From Terrimicrobium sacchariphilum (GTDB lineage: Bacteria > Verrucomicrobiota > Verrucomicrobiia > Chthoniobacterales > Terrimicrobiaceae): a stretch of DNA of 64,000 nucleotides. The translations under genes were made by a program, and so were the position numbers. The number at the start of each line of letters is the position of its first letter. Positions within the stretch are counted from its first letter, which is position 1. A model generated the notes under the pieces. It did no database searches, was not told the origin of the DNA, and saw nothing but the letters and a program-made list of their open reading frames with translations. This document shows positions 8,780 to 27,173 of the stretch, in pieces. Where the stretch lies: the NCBI RefSeq assembly GCF_001613545.1, contig NZ_BDCO01000003.1, positions 62,001-126,000 on the forward strand, written 5' to 3'.

Positions 8780-9417
8780 GGGGCGGGGGACAACCCCCGG
8801 TTCTCGAGGGCAGACACGATGGTATCGACCACTTGGTCAATGGAAAGGTGGGTACTGTCGACGACGGTGGAACCTTCGGGAATGGTGAGGGGAGCCGTGG
8901 CTCGGGACGAGTCCTGCTTGTCGCGAGCAGCGACTTCATCCGCCTGCCCCTGGGCCGAGCGGCGCTGCTGGCGCACCTCGGGCGAGGCGTCGATGTAAAA
9001 TTTGTAAGGCGTCTCGGGGAAGACCGCGGAACCGATGTCCCGCCCTTCCACGATGCTGTCTGCCACTCCGGCGAGAGCGTGCAGGTGAGCGTTTACCACC
9101 TCCCGCACGGCGGGTACCCGGGCCACGGCGGAGACGCTGCGATTTACTGCGTCGTCGGTGATATTGGCGCGCTGGCCATCGACCTCGAAGAAAGACTCTC
9201 CATTTTCAAACCCGCTACGGAACTGTCCCGCCTTTACCGCCGTGGCGACCGCTCCGGCATTTTGCACGTCGACGCCTCGGACCAGCATGTACCAGGTCGC
9301 CGTGCGGTAAAACGAGCCGGAGTTCACATAGGAAAATCCAATGGTCCTGGCGAGCTTGCGGGCGACGCTGCTCTTTCCCGATGCGGCCGGGCCATCGATG
9401 GCGATGATCGTATGCAT
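8776..9417 (-). CDS. cmk: Cytidylate kinase
   Basis: Phosphorylates CMP/dCMP with ATP. The 213 aa protein starts MHTIIAIDGPAASGKSSVAR, the family P-loop (GPAASGKSS). It continues with the YVNSGSFYR stretch that corresponds to the YxDTGAMYR region of CMP kinases and a REDIGSAVFPE-like segment (GRDIGSAVFPE). It lies between aroA (13 bp upstream) and plsC (4 bp overlap), which is a frequent bacterial order. The canonical D-T-G-A of the CMP-binding region reads N-S-G-S here, a conservative-looking variant. Confidence 0.94.
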   Translation of the reverse strand: MHTIIAIDGPAASGKSSVARKLARTIGFSYVNSGSFYRTATWYMLVRGVDVQNAGAVATAVKAGQFRSGFENGESFFEVDGQRANITDDAVNRSVSAVARVPAVREVVNAHLHALAGVADSIVEGRDIGSAVFPETPYKFYIDASPEVRQQRRSAQGQADEVAARDKQDSSRATAPLTIPEGSTVVDSTHLSIDQVVDTIVSALENRGLSPAP

Positions 9418-16119: not shown

Positions 16120-16159
16120 GTCCTTCTTCGCGTCCTTTGTGACCTTCTGTAAAAACCTG
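16120..16159 (+). repeat. Degenerate copy A of the 9-nt-unit intergenic repeat
   Basis: A weak copy of the CTTTGCTTC/CTTCGCTTC/CTTCTGTTC repeat family, reading TCCTTTGTGACCTTCTGT in its best-conserved part, with a CCTGTCTT tail shared with the copy at 24021. It lies in the 228 bp gap between the zincin-like gene and dnaB. Confidence 0.5.
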
Positions 16160-16225: not shown

Positions 16226-16259
16226 AACCCTTTGTTGCCTTCGCTTCCTTCTGTAAAAA
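16226..16259 (+). repeat. Copy B of the 9-nt-unit intergenic repeat
   Basis: Three 9-nt units: CTTTGTTGC, CTTCGCTTC and CTTCTGTAA. It has the same orientation as the degenerate copy about 70 bp upstream and lies just beyond the 3' end of dnaB. The rest of the 16045-16272 gap holds a GATCCGG direct repeat near 16045 to 16070 and nothing else that I can name. Confidence 0.7.
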
Positions 16260-23415: not shown

Positions 23416-23449
23416 AAACAGAAGGAAGCGAAGAAAACGAAGGGGAAGG
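23416..23449 (-). repeat. Copy C of the 9-nt-unit intergenic repeat (left of GxxExxY gene)
   Basis: Reads ACAGAAGGAAGCGAAGAAAA on the plus strand, so it is the reverse complement of the forward copies. It forms an inverted pair with copy D at 23931; by eye, 23 of 28 positions match. The pair brackets the GxxExxY gene. Confidence 0.75.
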
Positions 23450-23458
23450 CAGACGGGA

Positions 23459-23864
23459 GTGCATCCTTTGTTTTTGAAAGCCGACCGGCTCAGTCACGAG
23501 GTGATCGGGGCGGCGATCGAGGTTCACCGCGAAACGGGGGAGCGGATTGCTTGAGAGCATCTATGAAAGATGCCTCGTGCATGAGCTCTCCCTTCGCGGA
23601 ATATCCGTGGTTCAGCAGGCTCCCGTTGTCATTGAGTACAAAGGCCTCAAACTTGAGGAAACTCTCCGCCTTGACCTACTGGTGGAAGGCTGCCTTTTAA
23701 TCGAACTCAAATCTGTCCAGGACATCCTTCCCGTCCACAAGGCCCAGCTCTTCAGCTACATGAAGCTGCTCAACGTCCCGCTCGGCCTGCTGATCAACTT
23801 CCACGAACCCAAACTCACCAGCGGCATCCACCGCATGATGCTCCCGGGTTCTTCGGGAAAATGA
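23459..23864 (+). pseudogene. GxxExxY-family protein, frameshifted
   Basis: Two frames together encode a GxxExxY-type protein. The first frame, from GTG 23459, gives KADRLSHEVIGAAIEVHRETG and stops at TGA 23552. The second, from the start of LLESIYERCLVHELSLRG near 23545 to 23864, gives the rest. Deleting one G from the run of five at 23536-23540 joins them as ETGSGLLESIYE, the family's normal core. So the lesion is one extra G. It may be a decayed gene, a sequencing error or slippage. The function of the family is unknown; its fold has been related to nucleases by others. Inverted repeats C and D flank it. Confidence 0.82.
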
Positions 23865-23930: not shown

Positions 23931-23968
23931 AACCCTTTGCTTCCTTCGTTTCCTTCTGTTCCATCCTG
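23931..23968 (+). repeat. Copy D of the 9-nt-unit intergenic repeat (right of GxxExxY gene)
   Basis: Units CTTTGCTTC, CTTCGTTTC and CTTCTGTTC, followed by a CCATCCTGCCTTG tail also seen in the next copy. Inverted relative to copy C. Confidence 0.78.
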
Positions 23969-24020: not shown

Positions 24021-24060
24021 TCCTTTGCTTCCTTCGCTTCCTTCTGTTCAGTCCTGTCTT
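24021..24060 (+). repeat. Copy E of the 9-nt-unit intergenic repeat, in the ffh leader
   Basis: Units CTTTGCTTC, CTTCGCTTC and CTTCTGTTC, with tail AGTCCTGTCTTG. It ends about 5 bp before the ffh start codon, so it occupies the place where a ribosome-binding site would be. Same orientation as copy D, 90 bp away. Confidence 0.78.
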
Positions 24061-26097: not shown

Positions 26098-26132
26098 CCA
26101 AGGCTTTCAACAGAAGGAAGCAAAGGGGAAGG
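26098..26132 (-). repeat. Copy F of the intergenic repeat (left of the 277 aa gene)
   Basis: Contains AGGCTTTCAACAGAAGGAA, a 19-nt block present in exact inverted form in copy G at 27143. One 9-nt unit shorter than copy C. A GGAAGG/CCTTCC hairpin (26127-26144) follows immediately. Confidence 0.75.
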
Positions 26133-26200
26133 AAAGAACCTTCCGTGAGTCATCCTGATGTCTGCGGATAGTTCTGGCAATTCGACCTCTCAGGATACTG

Positions 26201-27034
26201 CTAAAGTGGTTCGATCGGAGATGATTTGGGAAGGAGAAGGATGCCTGTTTCCCCGGAGGGACTGGTGAGTTCGAGGGCAGTGTCGCTCAGAAGTGCCCAA
26301 AAAAATACGTGGCGGTCACGTGTTACGAGGACTCCTTCACAATACAAATCGTAGTCTTGAAAAGAATAAGGGCCTCCTGCCGGTTTCAAATTCAGATGAT
26401 CGATGAACCATTTTGGCGCTCGGTTCAGTGTTTCGGGGGCGATCTGAATGCCTTTCGCCTCCTCAATGTTGCGAATTTCATACAGCGATTGAGGTTCTAC
26501 GCTTTTTCCATCCCGGAGAAAGTGGCGTAGATTTTTTTCGGATAACGGGAATGCGGAACCGGTGGCTGGACGAAGATTTGAAGTAAAGGTGAAGAGGTCG
26601 CTCTCCTGCGGAGCCTTGGTAAGAGGCGGAGCTTCATTCGCATTCATGGGTGAAGGAACGCTTTTTGCCTCCGAATCCTTTAGGCGAATCAGGCAACTTC
26701 GATCACCTATGGAAATGCCAAGGAGATGACGGCTGCATAAAACCCAGTGGTACGGAGTTCCGTCCCTGGTGAAGAAATAACCCGTACACCAACTGTCATC
26801 GGACGCATTCTCGATGGCAGCTGGATCGGGTTCGATCACGCCATCCTTAAGAAAGCGCAAGAACTCCTCTCGGGGGAGGATTTTGGATGATCCGTACGGC
26901 GGATCGGAAGCGAAGGCAAAGAGGTCGTCGGGGGAGGGAATCTTATCGAGCGGCGGGCCGGACGCCCAACTATTGGGGCGGGCGGACGAGACGGAGAGAA
27001 GGAGGCAGGCAAAAAGCGAAAGGGGGATTCGCAT
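26201..27034 (-). CDS. Secreted two-repeat protein, function unknown
   Basis: 277 aa with a signal peptide (MRIPLSLFACLLLSVSSARP). The mature part is an internal duplication: repeat 1 (about residues 27 to 120) and repeat 2 (about 135 to 275) share PPL-x-K-x-P, DLF-F-S, a LP/PLSE-x-x-LRxFL(K/R)DG helix, and a later VTRD/FTRDG-x-x-(Y/F)HWVL-type strand ending GILLL or SCLIRL. The gene is visibly richer in A and T than its neighbours, which suggests recent acquisition. It is bracketed by inverted repeat copies F and G. I do not recognise the family. Confidence 0.72.
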   Translation of the reverse strand: MRIPLSLFACLLLSVSSARPNSWASGPPLDKIPSPDDLFAFASDPPYGSSKILPREEFLRFLKDGVIEPDPAAIENASDDSWCTGYFFTRDGTPYHWVLCSRHLLGISIGDRSCLIRLKDSEAKSVPSPMNANEAPPLTKAPQESDLFTFTSNLRPATGSAFPLSEKNLRHFLRDGKSVEPQSLYEIRNIEEAKGIQIAPETLNRAPKWFIDHLNLKPAGGPYSFQDYDLYCEGVLVTRDRHVFFWALLSDTALELTSPSGETGILLLPKSSPIEPL

Positions 27035-27142
27035 GGCGGGACCGTATCAAGATTCCAAGATTTTTTCCAAGCTAGAGGATTCAGGACGTCTCGCTGGGTG
27101 GCTGAAAGCCTCTGTCCGGGATGGCTACTCATGCAGCCCGAT

Positions 27143-27173
27143 CCTATGTTTCCTTCTGTTGAAAGCCTTCTGG
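27143..27173 (+). repeat. Copy G of the intergenic repeat (right of the 277 aa gene)
   Basis: Reads TTTCCTTCTGTTGAAAGCCT on the plus strand; the reverse complement shares the 19-nt block with copy F. It lies just beyond the 3' end of maf. Confidence 0.75.

Follow-up and report, generated by a model that had tools for sequence, protein, structure and literature searches.

Introduction

REPIN/RAYT systems consist of REP-invert-REP hairpins together with a single-copy REP-associated transposase, while MITEs are short, non-coding, dispersed elements with terminal inverted repeats. The GxxExxY family is spread over many phyla, and to our knowledge neither a function nor a transposase-type activity is known for its proteins. 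A literature search on the arms of GxxExxY/PF13366/TIGR04256 genes, with a coverage that left most subscription journals outside, returned no paper on the topic by title. REP-associated transposase systems of the REPIN/RAYT kind (PMC3116915), the GTAG/CGTC-type tags of REP repeats (PMC3733652), TAACTGA direct repeats (PMC4679880) and IVPs in rRNA insertions (PMC11270868) are the subjects of the respective papers.

Here we analyzed an inverted repeat that surrounds a gene for a 277-aa protein between khpA and maf of Terrimicrobium sacchariphilum. The whole 64-kb stretch of DNA under analysis is referred to as the window, the genome it belongs to as G000, and two genomes of the same genus (congeners) as G001 and G002. 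The features of the window are collected in Table 1.

Table 1. Positions of the repeat arms, genes and exchanged DNA in the window
Feature	Position	Strand	Basis or remark
B-type arm	16125..16150	-	motif match
A-type arm	16229..16254	-	motif match
Arm of the same family, left of the GxxExxY gene	23418..23443	+	motif match
GxxExxY gene (PF13366/TIGR04256), frame broken near the N-terminus relative to G001	23547..23864	+	PF13366 E 3e-31; TIGR04256 E 2.5e-33
Arm of the same family, right of the GxxExxY gene	23934..23959	-	motif match
Second arm to the right of the GxxExxY gene	24022..24047	-	motif match
Left arm of the 277-aa gene, A type, 27 nt	26100..26126	+	holds exact 19-mer 26101-26119; A arm also at the orthologous site in both congeners
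Stretch unlike both congeners	26127..27154		1028 nt vs 348 nt in G001; 26133-27141, 1009 nt vs 292 nt in G002
277-aa ORF, signal-peptide-like hydrophobic N-terminus (by eye), one domain in two copies	26201..27034	-	ORF list
Repeated domain, copy 2, about aa 136-273	26216..26629	-	internal alignment
Repeated domain, copy 1, about aa 27-121	26672..26956	-	internal alignment
Old hairpin spacer, remnant on the gene side of the right arm	27089..27139	-	ungapped 51-nt match to the G001 element
Right arm of the 277-aa gene, A type, inverted partner	27143..27169	-	holds exact 19-mer 27150-27168

Inverted arms at the 277-aa gene and their family in the genus

The 277-aa gene is enclosed by an exact inverted 19-mer, AGGCTTTCAACAGAAGGAA. 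With up to 3 mismatches allowed, 0.02 matches to it are expected by chance in the window, and 0 of 100 shuffled sequences contained two. A first, sequence-only reading of this DNA had recognized the block itself correctly and had placed it at 26102 and 27167, positions that turned out to be off by one. The 19-mer extends into 27-nt arms, which are 93% complementary and separated by 1016 nt. Each arm is a composite of an inner 17 nt, ACAGAAGGAARCNAAGG, and an outer part (GGCTTTC...). With up to 2 mismatches allowed, an 18-mer with the outer part had no occurrence in the genome other than this pair. The inner motif, on the other hand, was present in 43 genome copies at up to 1 mismatch versus 2 for the reversed control, and it also brackets the GxxExxY gene at 23547-23864, which shares its arm ends with the 277-aa element. 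The proposal that both genes have the same arrangement was thus borne out, as the inner 17 nt of both repeats are one motif, and judged by this motif the repeats at the two genes are a single family.

A search with the three-unit arm pattern at up to 2 mismatches gave 68 matches in G000, 49 in G001 and 69 in G002 (reversed control 2, 1 and 1), and at most 10 in each of 20 other genomes searched. In the stretches that were fetched from the three genus genomes, the arm matches at up to 2 mismatches numbered 90, 57 and 76, some chance matches included, and were sorted into A and B types by a simple ad hoc rule. All three genomes have further sites with a nested layout consisting of A arm, B arm, core, B' arm and A' arm. 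Arrays of arms in the same direction were observed in G000 as well (contig C2, near 607, 614, 911 and 998 kb), where units of ~150-160 nt each contain one B and one A arm.

G000, G001 and G002 carry one PF13366 gene each, bracketed in every case by arms of the family, and other genomes of the same survey contain up to 6. The GxxExxY gene of the window (23470-23864) may be inactive here, because its reading frame is broken, relative to G001, close to the conserved N-terminal motif.

Composition and product of the 277-aa gene

The initial impression that the gene is lower in GC than its neighbours held. With 52.8% it had the lowest GC content (mean 61.2, sd 2.5) of 54 window ORFs, a mechanical pick of frames of at least 150 aa taken longest first without overlap, which includes the 277-aa ORF and probably a few spurious ones. 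Its GC3 was 54.2% compared to a mean of 72.8 (sd 7.6), with lower values in 2 of these 54 ORFs, and its codon use was likewise not equal to that of the window ORFs, as reflected in a codon-adaptation value of 0.563 versus a mean of 0.688 (sd 0.080; 4 of the 54 ORFs lower).

Alignment of the protein with itself revealed an internal duplication with a score of 82, which was reached in 0 of 2000 shuffles (shuffle maximum 53). This structure of two domain copies is an independent sign that the predicted protein is real, and the product is probably a secreted two-domain protein. It had no Pfam or NCBIfam match. Convincing relatives were found neither in 38 related genomes besides its own nor among 387 genomes of the phylum (own included), where five weak matches with E 0.004-0.009 were obtained besides the protein itself. 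The same was true for a profile of the two repeats in 384 genomes of the class (own included; one match at E 0.0017 besides its own) as well as for GTDB contigs, viral contigs, plasmids and phages. These weak matches, together with a PHROG match at E 0.22 and a PDB match at E 0.97, were not believed to be homologues. The structure predicted from the single sequence had a mean pLDDT of 35.3, too low for a fold search, and Rfam returned no gathering-level match in four loci, the single match in the 277-aa gene being at chance level (E 0.69).

The khpA-maf interval in related genomes

In both congeners khpA and maf are adjacent, with A arms in the gap and without the 277-aa gene. The arms of G002 include the AAGGCTTTCA extension as they do in the window, and G001 retains AAGGCTTTCA on the right arm alone. 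The gap itself is taken up by a non-coding nested hairpin of ~300 nt that consists of A arm, B arm (TTTTTACAGAAGGTCGCAAAGGACACAAAGG-like), core, B' arm and A' arm. These hairpins are strongly self-complementary according to their predicted folding energies as RNA (G002 -173 and G001 -155 kcal/mol, computed without a shuffle control). The sequence-only reading had proposed to look for an empty khpA-maf interval in relatives: the gene is indeed absent from both congeners, but the interval holds a hairpin. The view that the repeats carried the gene as their cargo was not supported, since the same arms are found at this site in both congeners around non-coding DNA. Conservation of the gene at this place across the phylum, the observation that the reading had held against itself, was not encountered, the gene being missing from the same place in both congeners.

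When the khpA-maf elements of G001 and G002 were compared, 336 nt aligned at 79% in opposite orientation, while the flanks were collinear. Of 9 orthologous loci that carry arms on both strands and whose interiors are detectably similar, 3 have an interior inverted between species, compared to 0 of 5 loci with arms on a single strand, in a grouping of our own in which two of the nine loci match in both directions and were scored as not inverted. The remaining comparisons of this survey, including that of the khpA-maf element of the window, yielded no interior similarity in either direction. Hairpin interiors inverted in place between congeners were seen at three orthologous sites (L068, L069, L042, L114, L117 and L133).

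The window could be aligned from 15300 to 64000 (49 kb) with G001 and over its whole 64 kb with G002. Only one length difference of more than 60 nt was present relative to G001 and two relative to G002, all of them at arm sites, and the stretch with the 277-aa gene was the sole gene-sized length difference in the aligned window. A stricter alignment left extra unaligned stretches of 42-132 nt elsewhere, in which the genomes differed in length by no more than 13 nt, and it contained no indel of at least 40 nt inside any aligned block. The exchanged stretch starts and stops at the arms. It includes the spacer remnant next to the right arm, whose match to the G001 spacer scored 23, against a maximum of 15 in 1000 shuffles; the corresponding part of G002 matched it weakly, at a score reached in 18 of 1000 shuffles.

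Among 20 khpA loci with 1.5-kb flanks, maf was located beside khpA in the three genus members as well as in G029, a member of another family of the order, and nowhere else. The khpA-maf gap of G029 (624 nt) holds an unrelated open frame of 207 aa, and neither arms nor an inverted repeat were found in it (score 10, as high in 117 of 200 shuffles). The gap can therefore take a gene without arms. The arms at khpA-maf may be younger than the split from G029's family.

Arms around GxxExxY, IVP and other genes

GxxExxY genes of the order were surveyed for similar arms. A PF13366 match was present in 21 of 23 genomes, and of the 30 GxxExxY loci 4 near contig ends were dropped. Inverted arms were found in the 400-nt flanks of 22 of the 26 testable loci, with a best period of 8 in eight, 9 in ten and 10 in four of them, and the arm sequences differed strongly from genome to genome. 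The khpA loci that served as control had inverted arms in 0 of 20 cases, or 1 of 20 in a run with 60 shuffles. Similarly, 52 of 73 testable loci among the best 80 of 581 GxxExxY loci of a GTDB scan (7 with short flanks were dropped) exhibited an inverted pair above all shuffles, as opposed to 2 of 63 for control flanks displaced by 700-1000 nt. Among the 52 positive loci, a few (e.g. L217 and L248) did not resemble unit arms. According to the record titles, the loci of the scan span Verrucomicrobia, Planctomycetes, Bacteroidetes, Cyanobacteria, Geobacter, Chloroflexi and others. The design common to many phyla is a GxxExxY gene bracketed by an inverted pair of arms, each of about three 8-9-nt units, whose sequences vary between genomes, and the arms of the 277-aa gene are one sequence version of this design.

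Covariation between arm sequence and GxxExxY protein was weak (Mantel r 0.19 with kinship ignored, 11 of 1999 permutations as high) in the 33 of the 52 loci with simple arms. An alignment of 12 GxxExxY proteins revealed a conserved G-x-G-x-x-E-x-x-Y, a D, an E-x-K and a Q, residues that would fit a working PD-(D/E)XK nuclease, which is a predicted activity. In 380 kb sampled from G003, a genome of another genus in the same family, 20 arm-like matches to three other designs were present at up to 2 mismatches (reversed control 1), about 5 of which flank GxxExxY genes judging from their position. A short gene-less hairpin of CACGAAA-type arms (at 8854 and 8929) was also observed in G003 (contig C12, L288 8854-8953). 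It is too small for a gene, and a GxxExxY gene with arms of this type is located ~1.7 kb away. The survey of 23S rRNA IVP genes (PF05635), with 30 loci fetched, 2 dropped and a few below the family cut-off, detected inverted short-period arms in 22 of 28 testable loci, and the best period was 7 nt in 17 of these 22.

Within the genus, a VOC-family gene (PF00903) is located between A and B arms in G001 and has A and B arms on its left and an A arm on its right in G002. In G000 the gene is found at this place too, and one decayed arm was observed there. Since it is an old resident of all three genomes, bracketing can arise around an old gene, and a position between arms does not by itself make a gene cargo. 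A small HEAT-like lipoprotein gene of G001 and a gene of G002 with a weak GIY-YIG match were considered as further bracketed genes and rejected, since in each pair one of the arms is absent, has decayed or falls inside the frame of the gene. The arm site of the former (L115, contig C34) has a counterpart in G000 from which the gene is missing (L149, C2), and that of the latter (L139, C14) spans ~1.8 kb compared to ~0.6 kb in G000 (L147, C2:846134-846874).

History of the khpA-maf site

The arms are common to all three genomes, the gene is present in one, and a spacer remnant has been retained beside it, so that the arms look older than the gene. The simplest history of the site is that the khpA-maf hairpin is the older and was replaced by foreign-looking DNA, and we regard it as likely that the gene took the hairpin's place between the hairpin's own arms. 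A nested hairpin of A arm, spacer, B arm, core, B' arm, spacer and A' arm would have been present in the khpA-maf gap before the three sampled species split. In G000 the left spacer, both B arms and the core would then have given way to ~0.95 kb of foreign-looking DNA with one gene, with the outer A arms and one spacer remnant retained. As a possible cause, we infer that long palindromes break or misreplicate easily and are then repaired with incoming DNA; recombination through the repeated arms could be an alternative route of entry. The same process of breakage and repair, or of recombination, could also explain the flipping of hairpin interiors in place. Several observations limit this reading: the spacer remnant comprises only ~50 nt and its match in G002 is weak, the interior of the window's element has no similarity to either congener that passes E 0.001 once the arms are masked, the mechanism of replacement is a putative one and no donor copy of the 277-aa gene was found in the collections searched, and the gap of G029 holds another gene without arms.

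Joint travel of arms and gene as a cassette or transposon-like unit would account for the inverted arms, the odd composition and an exchanged stretch that ends at the arms as well as for the GxxExxY gene bracketed by the same arm family, and terminal inverted repeats such as those of a MITE or a transposon-borne cassette are indeed present at the 277-aa gene. However, none of the 14 neighbouring or enclosed ORFs had a Pfam match to a transposase, and the target-site duplications that the sequence-only reading had looked to are not visible in the sequence beside the arms (TTCC outside the left and CTGG outside the right arm). Neither the gene nor the arm extension has a second copy in its own genome, both congeners have arms at the same site, and the VOC gene, resident in all three genomes, is bracketed by the same arms in two congeners. 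We therefore consider joint travel improbable. That a foreign gene entered an ordinary intergenic gap by coincidence, with the arms uninvolved, appears rather unlikely. Foreign genes do enter intergenic gaps, the G029 gap with its unrelated frame and no arms is a case in point, and any role of the arms is putative, but the stretch that differs is bounded by the arms and is the sole gene-sized difference in the aligned window, and the other length difference of more than 60 nt relative to G002 is located at arms as well.

The 277-aa gene could instead be old, ancestral at khpA-maf and lost in both congeners with hairpins in its place, and a genus sampled by only three genomes leaves room for such a history. 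It would require about two losses, because the identities of the flanking blocks are similar in all three genus pairs (85-95%). Homology between the G001 and G002 hairpins extends over 336 nt, hairpins nested in this way occupy other sites in all three genomes, the composition of the gene is odd, and in G029, the sole outgroup in which khpA and maf are neighbours, another gene lies between them, all of which makes an ancestral gene quite improbable. Replacement of the older hairpin between its own arms thus remains our preferred account. What is seen at khpA-maf suggests in-place flipping of such hairpins as well as their possible replacement by a foreign gene; they would then be candidate sites for the entry of new genes into chromosomes that are collinear elsewhere.

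Comparison with described systems

The arm pair at the 277-aa gene has no PF13366 gene inside, and the locus does not qualify as a GxxExxY element. It resembles the loci of the GxxExxY family (TIGR04256, PF13366) in that the same arms bracket the GxxExxY gene of the window and the 277-aa gene, and it differs from them in its gene, which is not a GxxExxY gene. MITEs are resembled by the form present in the congeners, which is short, non-coding and dispersed and has terminal inverted repeats. In contrast to MITEs, no target-site duplication was seen here, and the form in the window carries a gene. We know of no transposase that shares the arm ends.

The likeness to REPIN/RAYT lies in the many dispersed inverted pairs of one short repeat and, in the genus, in the enzyme gene, of which every genome has a single copy with arms of the same family on both sides. 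On the other hand, the candidate enzyme here is a GxxExxY protein (PF13366, PD-(D/E)XK superfamily) while RAYT is an HUH (Y1) transposase, the arms consist of about three 8-9-nt units while REP is a short palindrome, and the arm motif ACAGAAGGNNRCNAAGG contains no GTAG/CGTC-type tag by inspection. Moreover, the system described here is known from sequence alone.

By analogy, GxxExxY proteins might be the enzymes of a very widespread REP-like system. Each would recognize its own inverted arms of about three units with 8-9-nt period and act on the arm pairs dispersed in its genome, which would thereby spread, be inverted in place and exchange their content. In this view the 277-aa gene would be swapped-in content, and the IVP four-helix-bundle proteins would belong to a parallel system with arms of 7-nt period. 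We offer this only tentatively. An activity of GxxExxY proteins on the arms is putative, and the GxxExxY frame of the window is itself broken near the N-terminus. What favours the analogy is that, in the genus, the only enzyme gene and many dispersed pairs have arms of one family, that the arm design is the same across phyla, and that arms and protein covary weakly (r 0.19, kinship ignored). An arm pair of fixed design and variable sequence around GxxExxY genes, together with the additional arm pairs dispersed in the genomes examined (three of the genus and a sample of a fourth), points to a testable job for the family. The 23S rRNA IVP genes (PF05635) share with GxxExxY genes the position between inverted short-period arms, and they differ in a best period of mostly 7 nt and in an unrelated protein family.
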